DNA from: Sphingomonas sp. SCN 67-18
GTDB taxonomy: Bacteria > Pseudomonadota > Alphaproteobacteria > Sphingomonadales > Sphingomonadaceae
Assembly: GCF_001724715.1 (NCBI RefSeq)
Contig: NZ_MEFG01000018.1
Location: forward strand, 1-64,000
DNA length: 64,000 nucleotides
Direction of reading: 5' to 3'
Shown: positions 13,493 through 53,921 of the stretch, piece after piece
Layout of the letters: each line of letters opens with the position of its first letter
Position numbering within the stretch: position 1 is the first letter of the stretch
Notes under the pieces: generated by a model
What the model saw: the letters and a program-made list of their open reading frames with translations, nothing else
What the model was told of the DNA's origin: nothing
Databases searched by the model: none
Made by a program: the position numbers and the translations under genes

Positions 13493-14932
13493 CTATGGCG
13501 CGTCGCCGCCGGACGCAAGCGGCACCAGCTTGCCCGGGTTCATGATCCCCGCGGGATCCAGCGACCGCTTGATCGCCCTGAGCGCGCCCAGCCGCCCCGG
13601 CTCGCCCAGCCGGGCGAATTCCGCCAGCTTCATCTGGCCGATGCCATGTTCGGCCGAAATCGATCCGCCGGCCGCCACAACCAGGTCGTGCACCATGTGG
13701 CTGGCCGGTTCCCCCACTTCCGCCATCCACCGCGCCCGGTCGACCCCGGCGGGCGCGCGGACGTGGAAATGGACGTTGCCGTCGCCCAGATGTCCGAAGG
13801 CGGTGGCCGACGTGCCCGGAAAAGCTGCCTCCAGCGTGCGCGCGGCGGACAGCATGAAGCCGGGCATGTCCGCCACGGCGACGGAGATGTCGTGCTGCAC
13901 CGCCGGCCCGGCGGCGCGCTCCGCCTCGGAGATCGATTCGCGGATCCGCCAGAAGGCATCGGCCTGCGCGCCATTGGCGGCAATCACCGCATCCTGCGCC
14001 AGTTCATCGGCAATCGCCTGCCCCAGCGCCTGTTCGAGGAATGCCGGCGCACCCTCGCCCACCGCCTCTATGAGCGCATGCCAGCGGTGCGCGCCGGCCA
14101 GCGGCGCGCGCGTCCCGGCAATATGCTGCAGCACCAGCGCCAGCGAATCCGCCGGGATCAGCTCGAAACTCTCGATCGCCTCGGCACTGCCCGCCTCCAG
14201 CCTGCGGAGTAGGTCCAACGCAAGCGACGGGCTGTCCAGCCCCACCCAGGCCACGGCGCGCTCGCTGACCGCCGGGTAAAGCCGCAGGCCGACGGCGGTG
14301 ATCACGCCCAGCGTCCCTTCCGCGCCGATCAGCAGCTGCTTCAGGTCATAGCCGCGATTGTCCTTGCGCAGCGCCGTCAGCCCGTCGAACCGGCTGCCGT
14401 CCGGCAGCACCGCCTCCAGCCCCGTGACCAGCGACCGCATGGTGCCGAAGCGCAGCACCTGCGTGCCGCCCGCATTGGTGGAGGCCAGCCCGCCCACCGT
14501 CGCTGACCCCTTGGAGCCGAGAGACAGGGGAAAGCGCCGCCCGGCCGCCGCCGCCGCATCGTGCAGGTTGGACAGGATCACCCCCGCCTCGGCCACCGCG
14601 ATATTGTCTTCGGCGGAAAGGCGGCGGATGCGGTTCATCCGCCTGAGCGACAGGATCAGCGCAGATCCGTCCGCCGGCGGCGTCGCCCCGCCCACCATGG
14701 ACGTGTTGCCGCCCTGCGGCACCAGCGCCACTCCGGCGGCGGCGGCCAGCGTCACCACGGCGGCCACCTCGTCGGCATTGGCGGGAGAGACCATGGCGGG
14801 CGACGCGCCCTGGAAACGCCCGCGCCAGTCGGCCAGCCAGGGCGCGATCTCCAGCGGGTCGGTGGTGATCCCCTTCGGCCCGACGATGTCGGCAAGGCGA
14901 TCGATAAGCTTAGGCGCCACTATCTTCCTCAT
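13493..14932 (-). CDS. FAD-linked oxidase, D-2-hydroxyacid dehydrogenase type
   Basis: 479 residues. The PCMH FAD-binding domain shows PQGGNTSMVGGATP (phosphate and flavin contacts) and a second FAD motif GSKGSATVGGLASTNAGG. The C-terminal FAD-oxidase domain has the metal-binding HLGDGNVHFH and SAEHGIGQMK typical of the D-lactate, D-2-hydroxyglutarate and GlcD group. No glcE or glcF is adjacent, so a stand-alone D-2-hydroxyglutarate-type enzyme is most likely. ATG 14932 is chosen over ATG 14986 because AAGGA lies 8 bases upstream and the shorter protein starts at the usual family position. Confidence 0.85.
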   Translation of the reverse strand: MRKIVAPKLIDRLADIVGPKGITTDPLEIAPWLADWRGRFQGASPAMVSPANADEVAAVVTLAAAAGVALVPQGGNTSMVGGATPPADGSALILSLRRMNRIRRLSAEDNIAVAEAGVILSNLHDAAAAAGRRFPLSLGSKGSATVGGLASTNAGGTQVLRFGTMRSLVTGLEAVLPDGSRFDGLTALRKDNRGYDLKQLLIGAEGTLGVITAVGLRLYPAVSERAVAWVGLDSPSLALDLLRRLEAGSAEAIESFELIPADSLALVLQHIAGTRAPLAGAHRWHALIEAVGEGAPAFLEQALGQAIADELAQDAVIAANGAQADAFWRIRESISEAERAAGPAVQHDISVAVADMPGFMLSAARTLEAAFPGTSATAFGHLGDGNVHFHVRAPAGVDRARWMAEVGEPASHMVHDLVVAAGGSISAEHGIGQMKLAEFARLGEPGRLGALRAIKRSLDPAGIMNPGKLVPLASGGDAP

Positions 14933-18468: not shown

Positions 18469-19299
18469 TCACTCGTCTCGCGGCGCGTCTCCGGAAAACA
18501 GGCGACGCCCATAACGGGTCCATAGCCACATCAGCAGGGCAAAGGCCGCCACCCATGGCAGGACGGATATGAATGCCGTCAGGATGATCGCAATGCCGGC
18601 CACGATGTTGGACCAGCCATCCTTGATCGCGCCAAGAATCGGGCCGTCGCGCAACCCGGGGTCGACGGCGCCCGATTCGTAGAAGAACTGCATGGGGGTG
18701 CTGGCCAGCTCCCGCACCGCATCCGCCCGCTCGGCCTGCGCCGCCCTGCGGTTATCCGTGACAGCCGCCAGCCTCGCCTGCAACTGCGTCCGTTCGCCCG
18801 CGGACAAGCCGGGCTTCGCCAATTGCTCGGTTATGCCCCGCGCCTCATCGGCCGATTCCGCCATATTGCGGTCGGCGGAATCGATAACCGCGCCGGATTC
18901 CTCGCTCTCCATGCTCGCATTGGAGAGCATGCCGCCGCGCTGGACGACGGTGGAAACGCCCTGTCGCCCGAAGGCTCTCGCCGCTTCGGGGGCCAGCCTG
19001 AACTGGAGCGAGGCCATGATCGTGCGGTCCCGGCTCACCTCATAGGTCATCCCCACGATCCTGCAGCGCTCCGGCTTCAATGCCTCGCACTGGGCCGCAT
19101 GTTCTTCCTGCACGCCCGCAATGCGCTCAGCGGGCAAGCGGAAGCCATAGCGGTAGAACAGCGCCAGATCCCCGGTCTGCGTGGCGCCGACATCGGGGCC
19201 GCTCTTGCCGCTGTCAGGGCCGCCTTCGTGCTTGGTATCGGGGTTTGGTGCGCTACAGGCCGCCAGCAGCAAGGCGACCGTCAATATGGCTCGACGCAT
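18469..19299 (-). CDS. lipoprotein with C-terminal membrane anchor, DUF4349-like layout
   Basis: 276 residues with a lipoprotein signal (MRRAILTVALLLAACS, lipidated C15). A DLALFYRYGFRLP strand opens a small domain, and GMTYEVSRDRTIMASLQFRL resembles the beta segment of DUF4349. A helical stretch (ITEQLAKPGLSAGERTQLQARLAAV) follows, and a C-terminal hydrophobic segment (IVAGIAIILTAFISVLPW) is followed by basic residues. A protein with both lipid and membrane anchors would span the periplasm side of the inner membrane. It lies between tgt and the MarR-GNAT gene. Function unknown; the DUF4349 link is from layout only. Confidence 0.6.
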   Translation of the reverse strand: MRRAILTVALLLAACSAPNPDTKHEGGPDSGKSGPDVGATQTGDLALFYRYGFRLPAERIAGVQEEHAAQCEALKPERCRIVGMTYEVSRDRTIMASLQFRLAPEAARAFGRQGVSTVVQRGGMLSNASMESEESGAVIDSADRNMAESADEARGITEQLAKPGLSAGERTQLQARLAAVTDNRRAAQAERADAVRELASTPMQFFYESGAVDPGLRDGPILGAIKDGWSNIVAGIAIILTAFISVLPWVAAFALLMWLWTRYGRRLFSGDAPRDE

Positions 19300-35288: not shown

Positions 35289-35295
35289 CATCCAG

Positions 35296-35372
35296 AACCC
35301 CGGCCGCGTCCTGACAGGACGCGGCTGAAAGGCCAAAACCCCGCCGCGTCCTCACCGGGCGCGGCCGAAAGG
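35296..35372 (+). repeat. two tandem hairpin repeats before the dienelactone hydrolase
   Basis: Two copies of a 36-37 bp element at a 40-bp period (35296-35332 and 35337-35372). Each contains a hairpin built on CCGCGTCC and its complement and ends G-AAAGG. Only the second copy continues into GAGCAGCGATG and so provides the ribosome site (AAAGGAG) of the hydrolase. The duplicated structure sits directly in the 5' leader and could modulate initiation. Confidence 0.7.
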
Positions 35373-36264: not shown

Positions 36265-36881
36265 GCGGCGCGCTCACCTTCTACACCAATCCCATGTCGC
36301 GCGGGCGGATCGCCCGGTGGATGCTGGAGGAAATCGGCCAGCCTTATCAAACCGTGCTGCTGGATTACGGCACGACCATGAAGGCGCCGGACTATCTGGC
36401 CGTCAACCCGATGGGCAAGGTGCCCGCCATCCGCCACGGCGATGTCGTCGTCACTGAATGCGCGGCGATCTGCGCCTATCTGGCGGATGCCTTTCCAGGG
36501 GCCGGCCTGGCCCCCGCCCCGGCCGATCGCGGCGACTATTATCGCTGGCTGTTCTTCGCCGCAGGGCCGGTGGAAGCGGCCGTCACCAACACCTCGCTGG
36601 GCGTCGAGACCCCGGCCGAAAAACAGGCGATGCTCGGCTATGGCAGCCTCACCGCCGTGCTCGACGCGCTGGAAGGCGCGGTCGCGGGCCGGGATTATGT
36701 CGCCGGGGATCGGTTCAGCGCGGCGGACGTCTATGTCGGCGCGCAGATCGGCTGGGGCATGATGTTCGGCACCGTGGAAAGGCGCCCGGCCTTTTCCGCC
36801 TATGTGGACCGGCTCCAGGCCCGCCCCGCCTTCGCCCGCGCCCGCGCGCTGGATGACGCGACGATGCCCCGGCAGGACTGA
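36261..36881 (+). CDS. glutathione S-transferase family protein
   Basis: 206 residues: a thioredoxin-fold N-terminal domain (LTFYTNPMSRGRIARWMLEE, cis-Pro region GKVPAIRHGDVVVTECAAIC) and a helical C-terminal domain (FSAADVYVGAQIGWGMMFG). Serine or threonine rather than cysteine lies at the expected catalytic position. Coupled to the dienelactone hydrolase by ATGA. The last 155 bp of coding sequence, with the stop and 16 further bases, are duplicated immediately downstream. Confidence 0.9.
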   Translation: MSGALTFYTNPMSRGRIARWMLEEIGQPYQTVLLDYGTTMKAPDYLAVNPMGKVPAIRHGDVVVTECAAICAYLADAFPGAGLAPAPADRGDYYRWLFFAAGPVEAAVTNTSLGVETPAEKQAMLGYGSLTAVLDALEGAVAGRDYVAGDRFSAADVYVGAQIGWGMMFGTVERRPAFSAYVDRLQARPAFARARALDDATMPRQD

Positions 36882-37070
36882 TCCCGCCCCCGCGGGCCGC
36901 CGTCTATGTCGGCGCGCAGATCGGCTGGGGCATGATGTTCGGCACCATGGAAAGGCGCCCGGCCTTTTCCGCCTATGTGGACCGGCTCCAGGCCCGTCCC
37001 GCCTTCGCCCGCGCCCGCGCGCTGGACGACGCGGCGATGCCCCGGCAGGACTGATCCCGCCCCCGCGGCC
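36725..37070 (+). repeat. 173-bp tandem duplication of the GST gene 3' end
   Basis: Positions 36725-36897 (GST tail, stop and 16 bases) recur at 36898-37070. By eye only about four substitutions separate the copies over the GST coding part, for example ACCGTGG against ACCATGG. The stop TGA at 36879-36881 recurs at 37052-37054. The copy has no start of its own and is a dead gene tail. The differences show two real copies rather than a single mis-assembled read. Confidence 0.92.
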
Positions 37071-37100
37071 CGCCAGCCCGAAACCATCCGGCAAAAGGAA

Positions 37101-42671: not shown

Positions 42672-43115
42672 TTGAGCCGAACTGCCAACCTGCGCCGCCA
42701 GCATGACGCCGCCATCCAATTGTCGGACGAGATCCTGTCGCTCTCGAACGCGGCGGACGGCCCGGCCAATGCCGCGCGGATCGCCATGACGCTGGCGAAG
42801 CTCACCGGCGTGCTGCGCATCCACTTCGCGCAGGAAGACCGGGTCATCTATCCCTATATGCTGCAATCCGCGGATCGCGCGGCGGCGCGGGTCGCGCTCG
42901 CCTTCCAGTCGGAAATGGGCGCGCTCAGCCCGCGCTTTCAGGATTATGCGCAACGCTGGTCGACGGCACGGGCGATCGCCGCCGGCTTCATCGATTTCCG
43001 CAGCGAGAGCAAATGGCTACTCAGCGCGCTGGTCCACCGCATCCGGCGCGAGGATGCAGAACTCTACCCGCTGGCCGACGCGATGCAGCCGGCGGACGTT
43101 CGCCGCGCCGGCTGA
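42672..43115 (+). CDS. hemerythrin HHE-domain protein
   Basis: 147 residues from a TTG start with GGGAGAG upstream. Helical bundle with iron-ligand candidates in LRRQHDAAIQLSDEI (first His), VLRIHFAQEDRVIYPYML (His/Glu) and, weaker, LVHRIRREDAELYPLAD near the C-terminus. HHE proteins bind a di-iron centre and sense or carry O2 or NO. Its last 21 bases (encoding DVRRAG plus stop) are repeated twice more downstream as part of the amplified junction with ugd. Confidence 0.8.
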   Translation: MSRTANLRRQHDAAIQLSDEILSLSNAADGPANAARIAMTLAKLTGVLRIHFAQEDRVIYPYMLQSADRAAARVALAFQSEMGALSPRFQDYAQRWSTARAIAAGFIDFRSESKWLLSALVHRIRREDAELYPLADAMQPADVRRAG

Positions 43116-43464
43116 ACGCGCGAACGCAAGCGGCATCCAGCACCGGCGGGCACGCACCGACCAATATCAAGACAGATCAGGCCAACCCGCCCCACCTCAA
43201 CGGAATTACAGACGTGGCGCAGGTGGACACCCGTCATGCCGGCTGAAAGCAGCTTCAGGCGCCGGCGGGCGCGCCCCGGCCAATACCGTGATAGATCAGG
43301 CCGGATCGCTCCACCTCAGCGGACTTACAGACGTTGCGCACACGGACATCCGCCGCGCCGGTTGAAAGCGGCTTCAGGCGCCGGCGGGCGCGCCCCGGCC
43401 AATGCCATGATAGATCAGGCCCGCCCGCTCCACCTCGACCGGGTTGTAGACGTTGCGCAGGTCG
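43095..43464. repeat. amplified convergent-gene junction, three units of 119-131 bp
   Basis: Three head-to-tail units: 43095-43225, 43226-43344 and 43345-43464. Each begins with a version of the hemerythrin tail (GAC...GCCGG.TGA, stops at 43113, 43244 and 43363) and continues with a version of the ugd 3' end in antisense. The rightmost unit runs into the real ugd gene. The middle copy, read on the minus strand, still gives EVERSGLIYHGIGRGAPAGA and a stop, almost the ugd tail. Identity between neighbours is about 85% by eye; the first unit has a 12-bp insertion. Confidence 0.9.
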
Positions 43465-49350: not shown

Positions 49351-51495
49351 TCAGTAACGGGCGCGCACGCTCGCGAACAACGACCGCCCCGGCTCGGGGA
49401 ACCCGTCGGTCAGCGTGTAAGAGCTGTCGAACAGGTTGCGCCCGCCAATGCCGAGGTCGATCTGCTCGCTCACCGCATAGTCGATGCGCAGCCCCACCGT
49501 CGCATAGCCGCCGGTGCGGTAATAGACCTGCGGCTGCCCCGTCGGGGTGGCGGTGAACAGCGTCCACCGCTTGCCGGCCAGGTCGACGCTGGGGATGATG
49601 TGCAGCCCCCCGGCCGGCGCCCAGTCCAGCCATGCGAAGCCCTTGTGGTTGGGCACGCCGGTCGGCCGGAAGGCGGGGTTGGCGGCATAGCTCAGGTCGC
49701 GCTTGATGCCGGTATAGTTGAACCCGGCGTCCAGCCCCGGCAGGATCGTCGCCGAGGCGGAGATTTCCACGCCATAATATTCGCCGCTGCCGACATTGCG
49801 GCTCTGCGTCATGTTGCGCAGCGCGCATCCCGGCGTGGCCACGGCGGGCGGCGTGGTCGATGCGGTGCACGGATAAGCGGGAATGGCGACGCCGAATATC
49901 GCATCCTCCACCCAGCTATAGAAAAGCGCACCCTCCAGCCGCGCCCGCCCGTTGCTCCACAGCGCGCCGATCTCGGCATTGGTGGCCCGCTCGCTCTTCA
50001 GCTCGGGGTTGGGGATCGCCTGGTTGAACCGCTGGCTGAACCGCTCGAAAATGGTCGGGAAGCGCGCGCGCGAAGACAGGCTGGCGTGCACACTCAGCCC
50101 CCCGCCCGCATCCCAATCCAGCCGCCCCTGCAGGTTCCACGTCTCCGCGTCGCGGCGGGGATATTGGTAGATCACGGCCGGCGTGCCGGACGTGCCGAGC
50201 GGCGATCCATATTCCTCCGCCTTCTTCAGGTCGCGCCAGTCGAAGCTCCCGCCCAGCGTCAGCCTCAGCGCCGCGCTCAACGCCAGCTCATTCTCCAGCG
50301 CCAGCGAGAAGCTGTTCTCGGTCTGCGTCTGCCGCGGCTCCACGGATGGCACGCCCGTGTTCGAAAAGCTGGTCTGCGCCTCGACATGCTTGTCATGGCG
50401 GTAATGGGCGGCCAGCCGCACGGTGTTGGCGGCGCTGGTCCGCACGTCCAGCTGGGCCGATCCACCCCACGCCTCGTCGAAATAGGGGCTGTCGAACGCA
50501 TATTGGCGGCTCTGCTCGGTCTGCGTCCGGTCGTTGAAGGACCGCAGCATCGAATCGAAGCGGTAATAATATGCCCGGGTCTTCAGCGTCCCCAGCTCGC
50601 CCAGCGCCGTCGTCGAGAGGAAATAGACGCTGTCTATGTCCCAGAAGGGCCAGTTCCAGAAACGCGGCGTCGTCACCGTGTCGCTGATGTGCAGCGGCGC
50701 GTTCTTCGCGCCCGCCTGCTTGGTATAGCTCAGCGCATATTCGTCGGTCGCATTGGGCGTGAAGCCAATCTTGGCATTCATCCGCCAGTCCCGCGTGCGG
50801 GAGAAATCGCGCGCCCCGCCATCCTCCATCGCGGGCAGCACGGGCGTGAAACCATTGGGCAGGTCCCAATGGTCGGTGAAGCTGCGGGCATAGCTCGCCT
50901 GCGCATACCAGCGGTCGTGCCGGGTGCCGATCATGGCGGAGGTCGAATAGCCGGCATAATCGGTGTCATTGTCGAAATTCACCGTGCCGCGCACGTCGAT
51001 GTCCAGCGCCTTGGTGGGCTTGCGCGTCACCAGGTTGATCGCCCCGCCCATCGCGCCGGGGCCGTCCAGCACGGATGCATAGCCCTTGGCCACCTGCACC
51101 TCGGCAATGTCGGTGGTCAGGAACCGGCCATAGTCCAGCCGGTTGTCGGCGGGCAGGTAGACGCGGATGCCGTCGATGGAAAGCGGCACCTGAAACCGGT
51201 CGAACCCGCGCACGAACACCAGCCGCTCGTTGCGGGTGCCGCCGCTGTTGCCCGCCACCACGCCCGGCATCAGGTTGACCGCATCGTCCAGCGCGGTGCG
51301 GCCGAACGTGTAGATCGCCTCGGAAGACAATGTGCCGCTGTCGATGCCCACGCCCTCGGCGCGCGGCGCCGTGACGACGATCAGCCCCAGCGAGAAGCGG
51401 TCGTCGGCCGCGCCGGCCGGCGGCGCGTCCTCGGCCTGCGCCGCGGACGCGACGATACATCCCGCACCAAGCAGGAAAGCAGAAATAGCACGCAT
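49351..51495 (-). CDS. TonB-dependent outer membrane receptor
   Basis: 714 residues: signal peptide (FLLGAGCIVASAAQA), plug domain (ALDDAVNLMPGVVAGNSGGT, VFVRGFDRFQVPLSIDGIRV, KGYASVLDGPGAMGGAINLV) and a 22-strand barrel ending in an aromatic-type SLFASVRARY. There is no N-terminal sigma-regulatory extension. It imports a scarce ligand with TonB energy. It is transcribed away from a small exported protein and an MbnH-like diheme protein; the shared promoter contains a ModE-box-like dyad and a ModE-type regulator lies beyond, pointing to molybdate, tungstate or a metal complex. GAGGGAAA precedes ATG 51495. Confidence 0.92.
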   Translation of the reverse strand: MRAISAFLLGAGCIVASAAQAEDAPPAGAADDRFSLGLIVVTAPRAEGVGIDSGTLSSEAIYTFGRTALDDAVNLMPGVVAGNSGGTRNERLVFVRGFDRFQVPLSIDGIRVYLPADNRLDYGRFLTTDIAEVQVAKGYASVLDGPGAMGGAINLVTRKPTKALDIDVRGTVNFDNDTDYAGYSTSAMIGTRHDRWYAQASYARSFTDHWDLPNGFTPVLPAMEDGGARDFSRTRDWRMNAKIGFTPNATDEYALSYTKQAGAKNAPLHISDTVTTPRFWNWPFWDIDSVYFLSTTALGELGTLKTRAYYYRFDSMLRSFNDRTQTEQSRQYAFDSPYFDEAWGGSAQLDVRTSAANTVRLAAHYRHDKHVEAQTSFSNTGVPSVEPRQTQTENSFSLALENELALSAALRLTLGGSFDWRDLKKAEEYGSPLGTSGTPAVIYQYPRRDAETWNLQGRLDWDAGGGLSVHASLSSRARFPTIFERFSQRFNQAIPNPELKSERATNAEIGALWSNGRARLEGALFYSWVEDAIFGVAIPAYPCTASTTPPAVATPGCALRNMTQSRNVGSGEYYGVEISASATILPGLDAGFNYTGIKRDLSYAANPAFRPTGVPNHKGFAWLDWAPAGGLHIIPSVDLAGKRWTLFTATPTGQPQVYYRTGGYATVGLRIDYAVSEQIDLGIGGRNLFDSSYTLTDGFPEPGRSLFASVRARY

Positions 51496-51526
51496 GGATT
51501 TTCCCTCTTTTTTAGCCCATCGAATC

Positions 51527-51548
51527 GCTATATTCGGCGATATATAGC
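51527..51548. promoter_or_regulatory. ModE-box-like operator in the divergent promoter
   Basis: GCTATAT (51527-51533), 8-bp spacer, ATATAGC (51542-51548): a perfect dyad. The E. coli modA operator has half-sites CGTTATAT and ACATAACG with the same 8-bp spacer. The site is 32 bp upstream of the receptor ATG and 24 bp upstream of the exported-protein ATG, where it would block both promoters. The ModE-type protein at 53526-53921 is the obvious candidate. Confidence 0.72.
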
Positions 51549-51571
51549 TTTCCAGCCCGGAGCAAAGCCCT

Positions 51572-52111
51572 ATGTCAGCCGCCCGCTTCCTCGTCATTCT
51601 GTGCACAGGCGCGCTCGCGGCGGCGGCCGCGCCCGCATCGGCGCAGGGCCAGATGGCGGATGCGGCGGCCACCTGCGCGGCCCCGGCCGATCTGCCTGCC
51701 CCCCTCGCCTCGTGGCGCGCGCCGGTGCCGCTCCGCGCCGCCACTGCCGCGCGCGGGCTGAAGGCCGCCACCCTCACGCCGGGGCAAAGCGTCACCCTCG
51801 CCCTCGCCCGCACGCCGGACGTCGCCTACCCGCTGCGCCCTGCAAAACCGGGCGGCAGCGTCAGCTATGGCGGGCTCACCCGCTTCACGGTGGACAAGCC
51901 GGGCACATGGCGCGTCGCGCTCAGCACCGCCGCCTGGGTGGACGTGGTGCGCGACGGCGCGGCGCTCCAGTCGATCGCCCATGGCCACGGGCCGGATTGC
52001 ACCGGAGTCCGCAAGATGGTGGATTTCACCCTGTCGCCCGGCGAATACACCATCCAGGTCGCGGCCAACGGCGCGGACAGCATCACGCTGCTGGTGACGC
52101 CGCTGCCGTGA
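51572..52111 (+). CDS. exported protein of the TonB/ModE locus
   Basis: 179 residues with a signal peptide (FLVILCTGALAAAAAPASAQ). The mature part starts with PADLPAPLASWRAPVPL and has beta-rich segments (GGSVSYGGLTRFTVDKPGTW, VDFTLSPGEYTIQVAANGAD) resembling a small jelly-roll or Ig-like domain, with cysteines at C34 and C142. The stop overlaps the start of the MbnH-like gene (GTGA). It occupies the place of MbnP in metallo-mystery-pair systems, but lacks the four-Cys motif. I do not recognise the family; a periplasmic ligand binder is inference. Confidence 0.7.
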   Translation: MSAARFLVILCTGALAAAAAPASAQGQMADAAATCAAPADLPAPLASWRAPVPLRAATAARGLKAATLTPGQSVTLALARTPDVAYPLRPAKPGGSVSYGGLTRFTVDKPGTWRVALSTAAWVDVVRDGAALQSIAHGHGPDCTGVRKMVDFTLSPGEYTIQVAANGADSITLLVTPLP

Positions 52112-53094
52112 AGCGCCTGCTCTGCGCGCTGGCGCTGCTCGTCCTCACCGCGGCCGCGCCGGGCTGGCGCTGGTCGCTGCCGGACGGCATGGCCCCGCCG
52201 CCGGTCCCCGCCGCCAACCCGATGAGCGCCGCGCGGGTCGAGCTTGGCCGCCGCCTGTTCTACGATGCGGATCTGTCGCTGGACGGCACCCTCGCCTGCT
52301 CCAGCTGCCATGAACAGCGCCACGGCTTCGCCGACAGCGTCTCGGCCCGCCCCGGCGTCCATGGCGATCCCGGCCGCCGCAACGCCTCCGGCCTCGCCAA
52401 TGTCGGCTGGCTCAGCCCGCTCACCTATGCCGATCCCACCCTCGCCACGCTGGAGGCGCAGGCGCTGGTCCCGCTGGTCGGCGAAACGCCGGTCGAAATG
52501 GGCATGAAAGGCATGGATGCCGAACTCGCCCGCCGCCTCTCGGCGGATCGCTGCTACCGCACCCAGTTCGCCCGCGCCTTTCCGGGGAGCAAGGGCCGGA
52601 TCGATCTCGCCTCGGTCGTCGCAGCGCTCGCCGCCTTCCAGCGGACGATGGTGTCCGCCGCCAGCCCATGGGACGATTTCCGCCGGGGCGATGCCGCCGC
52701 CCTCACCCCGCTCGCCCAACAGGGGGTCGCGCTGTTCGAAAGCCGGGGCTGCGCCGCCTGCCATGCCGGGCCGCAACTGACGGACCTGCGCTTCCACGGC
52801 TTCGCCCCGCCGCAGGCGCGCGATCCCGGCCTCGTCGAACGGACCGGCCGGGCAGAGGATGCCGGCCGCTTCCGCACCCCTTCGCTGCGCAACGTCGCGG
52901 TCGGCGGCCCCTGGTGGCATGACGGGTCGGCGAAAACGCTGGACGCCGCCATCCGCCGCCACGCAGCAGCGGTCGCCGTCACCGATACGGACATGCCCGC
53001 CCTGCTCGCCCTGCTGGAAAGCTTCACCGATCCGCATTTCATCACGGACCCCCGCCTCTCCCGCCCCGACCGCGCCTGCGGCAAAAAACTCTGA
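52108..53094 (+). CDS. MbnH-like diheme cytochrome c peroxidase-family protein
   Basis: 328 residues from a GTG overlapping the previous stop. The signal peptide runs to about A17. Heme sites are C64-S-S-C67-H68 and C215-A-A-C218-H219. LGRRLFYDADLSLDGTLACS, NASGLANVGWLSPLTYADP and LEAQALVPLVGETPVEMG match the MXAN_0977/MbnH branch of the MauG superfamily, which oxidises tryptophan in its copper-binding partner MbnP. No classical MbnP is present; the 179-residue upstream protein may be the substrate. The last 65 bases are part of the amplified junction that follows. Confidence 0.88.
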   Translation: MKRLLCALALLVLTAAAPGWRWSLPDGMAPPPVPAANPMSAARVELGRRLFYDADLSLDGTLACSSCHEQRHGFADSVSARPGVHGDPGRRNASGLANVGWLSPLTYADPTLATLEAQALVPLVGETPVEMGMKGMDAELARRLSADRCYRTQFARAFPGSKGRIDLASVVAALAAFQRTMVSAASPWDDFRRGDAAALTPLAQQGVALFESRGCAACHAGPQLTDLRFHGFAPPQARDPGLVERTGRAEDAGRFRTPSLRNVAVGGPWWHDGSAKTLDAAIRRHAAAVAVTDTDMPALLALLESFTDPHFITDPRLSRPDRACGKKL

Positions 53095-53575
53095 CCGCCC
53101 CGTCCCGCGCCGGGCGTCAACGACGCATCAACGCTCCACCAATCCGCGTGTCACCCCGGACCCACACCGCTCCCGACCGGACCGCACCTGCGGCAAAAGG
53201 CCATGATCGCCTTCTGTCCGTGCCGGGCGTCAAAGCTTCACCGATCCACTTTGATCCTTAATGCCCGCCGCTCCCGGCCGGACTGCGCCCGCAGCAAAAA
53301 ACCATGATCGCCCGCTGCCCATGCCGCGCGTCAACATCGCAACAAATTGCACCGATCCACATATCATCCCGGACCCACACCGCTCCCGGCAGCACCGCAT
53401 CCACCGCAAAGACCATGATCGCCCGCGTCCCGCGCCGGGCGTCAAAGGCGCATCAACGCTTGACCGATCCGCATTTATCGCGGACCCGCGCCGCTCCCGG
53501 CAGCACCGCGCCTGCGGCAAAAAAGCTATGATCGCCTGCTGCCGGTGCCGGGCGTCAGCGGCGCATCGCGCATCA
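53027..53575. repeat. amplified convergent junction: five tandem units of 102-112 bp
   Basis: Units start at CCGATCC or CCAATCC: 53027, 53139, 53241, 53352 and 53464. Each carries a degraded copy of the diheme gene's 3' end (GATCC..., CACCGCTCCC, CCTGCGGCAAAA-like), the core ATGATCGCC and a copy of the ModE gene's 3' end in antisense (GTGCCGGGCGTCA). Unit 1 still contains the diheme stop (53092-53094) and unit 5 the ModE stop (53526-53528). In unit 5 the aligned stops abut as CTATGA, so the ancestral convergent genes probably met stop to stop. The 431-bp gap between genes holds nothing else. Confidence 0.9.
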
Positions 53576-53921
53576 GCACGGTCAGGCTGCTGCCGTTGAG
53601 CAGCGGCGCCGCTCCGGTCTCCGCGCCCTGCTGCAGCGCGCGATAGGCCGTCAGCACCGCCTTGCCCGCCGCGCTCACCCGCGCGCCCTTCTCGTGGCTG
53701 CCGCCGGATACCGTCTCCACCAGCCGCTCGCCCCAGCAGCGGTTCATCGTGTCGACCAGCAGCCAGGCGCGGCGATAACTCATCCCCAGCGCGCGCCCGG
53801 CCCCGGAGATCGATCCCTCCGCCTCGATCGCGTCGAGCAGATCGGCCTTGCCCGGCCCCATGGCGATCTCGTCGCCGCAATATAGCCGGATCTTGATCTC
53901 CAATTGCCCTGGACGCGTCAT
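53526..53921 (-). CDS. ModE-type winged-helix regulator without a molybdate domain
   Basis: 131 residues. LEIKIRLYCGDEIAMGPGKA and DLLDAIEAEGSISGAGRALG, followed by MSYRRAWLLVDTMN and ERLVETVSGGSHEKGARVS, match the N-terminal DNA-binding domain of ModE. The TOBE molybdate-binding repeats are absent, as in many short ModE-like proteins, so ligand sensing must differ. A ModE-box-like dyad lies in the receptor promoter 2 kb away. Its last 15 codons lie in the fifth unit of the amplified junction and may have been altered by it. Confidence 0.87.
   Translation of the reverse strand: MTRPGQLEIKIRLYCGDEIAMGPGKADLLDAIEAEGSISGAGRALGMSYRRAWLLVDTMNRCWGERLVETVSGGSHEKGARVSAAGKAVLTAYRALQQGAETGAAPLLNGSSLTVLMRDAPLTPGTGSRRS

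Follow-up and report, generated by a model that had tools for sequence, protein, structure and literature searches.

A five-unit tandem array at a tail-to-tail gene junction in Sphingomonas sp. SCN 67-18, with similar duplications at other convergent junctions of the genome

Anatomy of the junction between the di-heme and ModE-like genes

In the window, by which we mean the whole stretch of 64,000 nucleotides that was analysed, a di-heme peroxidase gene on the plus strand and a small regulator gene on the minus strand converge, with a stop-to-stop distance of 431 bp. The region 53018-53568 between and across their ends consists of five degenerate head-to-tail units, and repeat finding, TRF, unit alignment and self-BLAST agree on a single array. 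The genes and units are as follows:

52108-53094, plus strand: di-heme cytochrome c peroxidase / MauG-type (CCP_MauG) gene; PF03150, E 3e-42; its TGA (53092-53094) lies inside unit 1
53018-53130: unit 1 (u1), 113 bp; real di-heme 3' end, with the ModE-like 3' end as a dead copy
53131-53231: unit 2 (u2), 101 bp; both gene ends, dead; right end about 11 bp shorter
53232-53342: unit 3 (u3), 111 bp; both gene ends, dead; least identical to the other units (72-74%)
53343-53455: unit 4 (u4), 113 bp; both gene ends, dead copy
53456-53568: unit 5 (u5), 113 bp; dead di-heme end and real ModE-like 3' end; CTATGA at 53526-53531
53526-53921, minus strand: ModE-like N-terminal winged-helix regulator gene; open reading frame with a sub-threshold match to PF00126 (HTH_1), E 1.9e-4

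The last 77 bp of the di-heme gene form the left half of u1, and the encoded protein ends in a C-terminus (...TDPHFITDPRLSRPDRACGKKL, followed by the stop) that is similar to the C-termini of its relatives. At the opposite edge, the last 43 bp of the ModE-like gene form the right half of u5. We take this small winged-helix regulator (53526-53921) to be of the ModE type, a label that comes from an earlier note on this DNA, with the Pfam match staying below threshold. Upstream, at 49351-53094 of the window, a TonB-receptor-like gene (identified by eye) is divergent from the gene of a small secreted protein, which in turn has a 4-bp overlap with the di-heme peroxidase gene; we take this region to be reminiscent of metal-uptake loci of the MbnP/MbnH kind. 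Coding across the array was considered and rejected: long open reading frames do overlap it, but no support for them was found.

Gene order is identical in all five units, each of which holds the ends of both genes, the di-heme end to the left and the ModE-like end to the right. Pairwise identity among the units is 72-80%, in an alignment whose borders were shifted by 6-7 bp. In a self-BLAST of 52900-53700, the best off-diagonal match scores 253 bits, whereas 200 dinucleotide-preserving shuffles had a median of 22.6 bits and never exceeded 39.7. The earlier note had described five units of 102-112 bp at 53027-53575, each with the 3' ends of both convergent genes, reaching into both coding sequences and ending in a unit in which the two stops abut as CTATGA. 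The number of units, their content, the reach into both genes and the abutting stops all agree with our alignment; the sizes have to be corrected to 101-113 bp, and the span holds to about 10 bp, its start lying some 9 bp and its end some 7 bp earlier. The divergence of 20-28% between units also speaks against an assembly error, as the note had argued from the differences between the copies.

Decay is distributed unevenly along the array. The di-heme tail can be followed in frame to its stop in the left halves of u1 and u2; in the left halves of u3, u4, and u5, a stop or a shift of frame interrupts it. Read on the other strand, the right halves of u1, u4, and u5 give the tail of the ModE-like protein, D-A-(S/P)-L-T-P-G..., and those of u2 and u3 give weaker versions of it. 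Within the CTATGA of u5, CTA (53526-53528) is the ModE-like stop on the minus strand and TGA is the copy of the di-heme stop. The two outermost units differ at this point: u1 reads CTC-TGA, with the leucine kept and the ModE stop lost, and u5 reads G-CTA-TGA, with the ModE stop kept and the di-heme frame lost. The 12 two-state informative columns among the five units yield six conflicting groupings, and hence we drew no tree of duplication order.

Single-copy junctions in relatives and the origin of the array

A di-heme relative at E <= 1e-60 is present in 23 of the 397 family genomes searched, the window's own counted, and the regulator faces it in eight of those genomes besides the window's own. 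For the junction itself, we compared 13 rows of the convergent pair from other genomes, all outside the window's genus, of which two (L061 and L155) apparently come from one species, leaving 12 distinct. Stop-to-stop distances in these rows are -40, -28 (twice), -6 (twice), -4, +2, +3, +5, +6 (twice), +8, and +66 bp. The array does not fit into such spacings, and the junction is therefore single-copy in all 13 rows, which is how the comparison of syntenic junctions proposed in the earlier note turned out; no intermediate copy numbers were seen among these genomes. A repeat finder run on five of the 13 junctions detected no repeat there.

The relatives also illustrate how the two genes can share their ends. 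The junction reads CTATGA in Sphingobium scionense (L059) and TTATGA in a further relative (L140), and in both of them the last leucine codon of the di-heme gene doubles as the reversed stop of its neighbor, an arrangement that u5 still shows. The di-heme 3' ends of the 13 relative rows align with the left halves of all five units, with mean identities of 0.604 for u1, 0.582 for u5, 0.521 for u2, 0.518 for u3, and 0.466 for u4. Against some of these rows, the left half of u5 equals or slightly exceeds that of u1. Plain decay since one early event does not explain this nearness of u5 to u1.

Intergenic tandem units of 101-113 bp resemble MIRU/VNTR loci, and the array could be an insertion at the junction of some dispersed or mobile sequence of the REP/BIME, MIRU, or MITE kind. 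We consider this highly improbable, given that the ends of the units are the two genes' own coding sequence and that a 226-bp piece of the array (u4-u5), compared with its own 3.22-Mb genome, gave three matches that all lie within the array (40 of 117 first-look candidates scored). Because this piece matches only the array locus, the array does not represent a REP-like family scattered through the genome; dispersal of the MIRU, REP, or BIME type requires many genomic copies, and for the 226-bp piece these were not found in its own genome. A longer query of 1221 bp has three short matches elsewhere, one of which touches the array, pairing 30 bp of u1 at 93% with a site in C21; this match amounts to a short G+C-rich stretch and nothing more. 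The palindromic hairpin of REP and BIME elements is likewise absent from the array, whose folds on both strands stay within those of shuffled sequences (z -1.7 to +0.9). The strongest fold, on the minus strand of u5, is matched by 11 of 200 shuffles, and repeat finding returned no inverted pair of at least 12 nt with both arms inside the array. Nor does the array have the identical short repeats and unique spacers of a CRISPR array, its whole units being alike and diverged.

The array could instead have been selected as a spacer, terminator, or insulator that separates once-overlapping genes or damps antisense read-through. It does remove the stop-codon overlap and place 431 bp between the convergent genes, all five units have been kept, and the left half of u5 is less decayed than the inner units. 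Selection of this kind nevertheless appears unlikely to us, as there is no terminator-like site, the folds are those expected of shuffled sequence, the units carry frame breaks and have decayed unequally, and relatives live with stops that are -40 to +66 bp apart. The search for bidirectional intrinsic terminators, recognized by a G+C-rich hairpin with a T run behind it, returned none in 52900-53700, where shuffles lead one to expect 0.7; a promoter pattern scan of the same region gave no match, and Rfam has no family at the array. With Rfam, the promoter and terminator scans, and folding all empty, we rejected a reading of the array as an RNA element.

What the array does display are the hallmarks of tandem duplication, namely head-to-tail copies of local sequence in one order, with a single copy in the relatives (13 of 13 rows, 12 of them distinct). 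We interpret it as a tandem duplication of the tail-to-tail junction that went from one copy to five, left both genes intact, and was followed by drift, and we assign this reading a probability of roughly 0.88. The proposal in the earlier note that the junction itself was duplicated, and not a mobile repeat, is supported by the gene-end alignment, by the single-copy relatives, and by the finding of no second genomic site for the 226-bp piece.

Short tandem duplications can arise by RecA-independent slippage or template switching, and the young 173-bp and 135-bp cases described below resemble such events in being head-to-tail, two-copy, and 100-200 bp in size. In the ancestor of the array, the two stops would have abutted, with CTA serving both as the last (Leu) codon of the di-heme gene and as the reversed stop of the ModE-like gene. 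One of these RecA-independent routes may then have duplicated roughly 112 bp, made up of about 77 bp from the one gene end and about 43 bp from the other, after which further slippage or unequal exchange between the copies could have produced five units. Since u1 supplies the end of the left gene and u5 that of the right gene, neither protein is damaged, and the duplication would have been retained because both genes stay intact. The inner copies would be free to drift, presumably neutrally, and the two once-overlapping gene ends would have become uncoupled. In this old array, the breakpoints are too decayed for microhomology to show. To our knowledge, neither a clustering of short duplications at tail-to-tail junctions nor their growth to five units has been described.

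In the literature searched, we came across no published account of bacterial tandem duplications clustering where genes converge. Of the published cases found, the spacer between the rnc and fpg1 genes in the Mycobacterium tuberculosis complex (ETR-F, VNTR3239) comes nearest; lineage-specific direct repeats bring it to 279-358 bp, as against 1-54 bp in the species shown from outside the complex (PMC2734929). As in our array, a spacer that is short in outside species has been filled by lineage-specific direct repeats. The rnc and fpg1 genes, however, are co-directional, and between them lie exact repeats that set in 40 bp beyond the stop and vary in length from strain to strain, whereas the genes flanking the array converge and its units are the gene ends themselves, in diverged form. 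MIRUs are units of 40-100 bp at gene junctions whose neighbors stay functional, and they are scattered at 41 places and appear mobile (PMC2734929; PMC12548453). The array is like them in that its short units at a gene junction leave the neighbors functional, but it was found at one place only and is made of the ends of local genes.

Duplications at other convergent junctions of the same genome

Counting the array, the genome carries at least six such duplications, and the window holds three of them, a circumstance that the earlier note had missed. Besides the five-unit array, these are:

Window, 43128-43459: second array, 2.7-2.8 units of 119 bp, 81%; convergent spacer between a hemerythrin-domain gene and a UDP-glucose dehydrogenase gene
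Window, 36722-37074: third duplication, young, two copies of 173 bp, 96-97%; carries the 3' end and stop of a glutathione S-transferase (GST) gene and lies in the convergent spacer between this gene and one of the Bax1-I family
Locus L227, 10732-11014: 135 bp x 2, 89%; one gene end copied
Locus L274, about 18700-19014: two units, offset 154 bp, 128/161 positions identical; ends of a DUF1611 gene and a Beta-lactamase-family gene, both copied
Locus L302, 5598-5928: two units, 68%; z 9.9 for the right gene end and 3.3 for the left

Both gene ends are clearly copied (z >= 4 on each side) in two of the six, the five-unit array and L274, and probably also in L302. In the second array, the hemerythrin-domain gene (plus strand) ends at 43115 and the UDP-glucose dehydrogenase gene (minus strand) at 43374; the copied dehydrogenase end is clear (z 16), and a copy of about 20 bp of the hemerythrin gene end was recognized by eye (z about 2). 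The remaining two do not have both ends copied, the duplication at 36722-37074 containing only the GST end. These two young cases (96% and 89%) are plain two-copy duplications, consistent with the account of junction duplication given above, and inspection of their breakpoints by eye revealed a 7-bp direct repeat (GCCCGCG) in L227 and at most 2 bp of homology in the 173-bp case. Convergent spacers are short in this genome (median 16 bp), and a duplication of 110-175 bp would hence often take in both ends. The successive steps can be read from extant sequences. In relatives the overlapping junction is present once, the young duplications have two copies, and the old array has five, the outermost of which carry the real gene ends. 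This bears on the origin of new intergenic DNA in compact bacterial genomes and on the separation of overlapping genes, which are usually only inferred.

Junctions were surveyed in 1.99 Mb of the 3.22-Mb genome (62%), composed of the window and further stretches, with a home-made gene caller and self-BLAST across each junction. Copies had to be adjacent (<= 15 bp apart), a rule that was set after the first scans had been seen, and junctions too long for the scan were skipped (19 in the own genome, 7 in the control). Adjacent tandem duplication was present at 6 of 260 convergent junctions, as against three weak, unconfirmed co-directional hits (>= 45 bits) among 1411 others (Fisher p = 7e-4 with all three hits; p = 3e-4 at >= 60 bits, 6 versus 2). 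This contrast is weakened because half of the six cases lie in a window chosen for its array; without the window, the counts are 3/249 and 3/1364 (the second denominator being approximate), with p about 0.05. The three co-directional hits are L270, L221 (61%), and L230 (65%). We rejected L270 as a junction duplication, its translation revealing, by eye, a missed open reading frame with Sel1-like repeats. L221 and L230 are doubtful and stay below z 4 in the gene-end test described below, for which the L270 spacer is too long.

As a control, we used 1.16 Mb, mostly from sphingomonads, made up of 80 loci around ModE-like genes and 20 stretches of five genomes; a few of the loci come from outside the sphingomonads, and loci and stretches were not de-duplicated against each other. 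Under the adjacency rule, none of the 156 convergent control junctions, and none of the 988 control junctions in all, reaches 40 bits. The difference between own and control convergent junctions is modest (6/260 versus 0/156, p = 0.058) and becomes 6/260 versus 0/186 (p = 0.038) when 67 further short loci with 30 further convergent junctions are added. Before adjacency was demanded, the first scans had returned six convergent, two divergent (L207, L243), and four co-directional hits (L230 twice, L270, L288) in the own genome, and two co-directional hits (L114, 276 bits; L260, 78 bits) and no convergent one in the control; the rule removes L207, L243, one L230 row, L288, L114, and L260. TRF with lax settings reported many weak arrays in all samples, which were left out of the counts. 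With stricter settings and a period of at least 50, it found four arrays in the first 438 kb of the own genome, three of them in the window, and one in 761 kb of control.

In the gene-end test, spacers of 80-800 bp were aligned to the adjoining 150 bp of their own genes and to those of other junctions. Six of 48 convergent spacers in the own genome match their own gene ends, with best z values of 9.9-37, whereas z 4 is reached by none of 364 co-directional and none of 235 divergent spacers (6/48 versus 0/599, p = 1e-7; without the window 3/41 versus 0/571, p = 3e-4). L240 (z 5.6) would have been a seventh convergent hit but was left out, as a tRNA-Asp gene lies in its spacer. No match was found among the 40 convergent control spacers (own 6/48 versus 0/40, p = 0.023). 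At z >= 4, the control did return 4 of 244 co-directional spacers (L114, L260, L066, L250) and 1 of 127 divergent spacers (L137), and gene-end-like matches thus do occur at other junction types in the controls.

These counts raise the question of whether convergent junctions are mutational hot spots, at which duplications arise more often instead of merely surviving there. Opposing RNA polymerases, read-through, supercoiling, or fork stalling might conceivably trigger local re-replication at such sites. All six accepted cases in the 62% sample are at convergent junctions, and the copies of own gene ends show the same one-sided distribution. A survival bias alone would predict that copies of a gene's 3' end also persist in long co-directional spacers, so that the 0/364 found there leaves room for a hot spot. 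Convergent junctions are, however, also the cheapest place for a duplication, with no promoter and no ribosome site to disturb; the control has its gene-end-like matches at co-directional and divergent junctions, and half of the cases fall within one chosen 64-kb window. Moreover, with 0/156 convergent junctions affected in the control, a hot spot would have to be lineage-specific. We therefore regard it as a tentative and rather doubtful suggestion that in this lineage tail-to-tail gene ends are duplication hot spots, the probable cause then being opposing transcription, and that such duplications are a main source of convergent spacers and of the uncoupling of overlaps. If it were true, about 1 in 8 convergent spacers of 80-800 bp (6/48 in the sampled genome) would still contain a recognizable copied gene end. 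Given this apparent excess where genes converge, one can test whether duplications are caused by opposing transcription or simply tolerated under it.

Two further repeats came to light in the course of the scans. At L288, removed above by the adjacency rule, a 99-bp repeat occurs in two 100% identical copies (14084-14182 and 14604-14702) that are 520 bp apart, one in a gene labeled by eye as beta-lactamase-like and the other in one labeled by eye as an acyl-CoA dehydrogenase gene. The first of these genes looks frame-shifted just past the copy, and a recent local conversion or an assembly fault is possible. In the window, at 35292-35372, a 40-bp unit with a G+C-rich hairpin-like stretch is tandemly doubled just upstream of a dienelactone-hydrolase-like gene (by eye), and looks like a doubled putative terminator.
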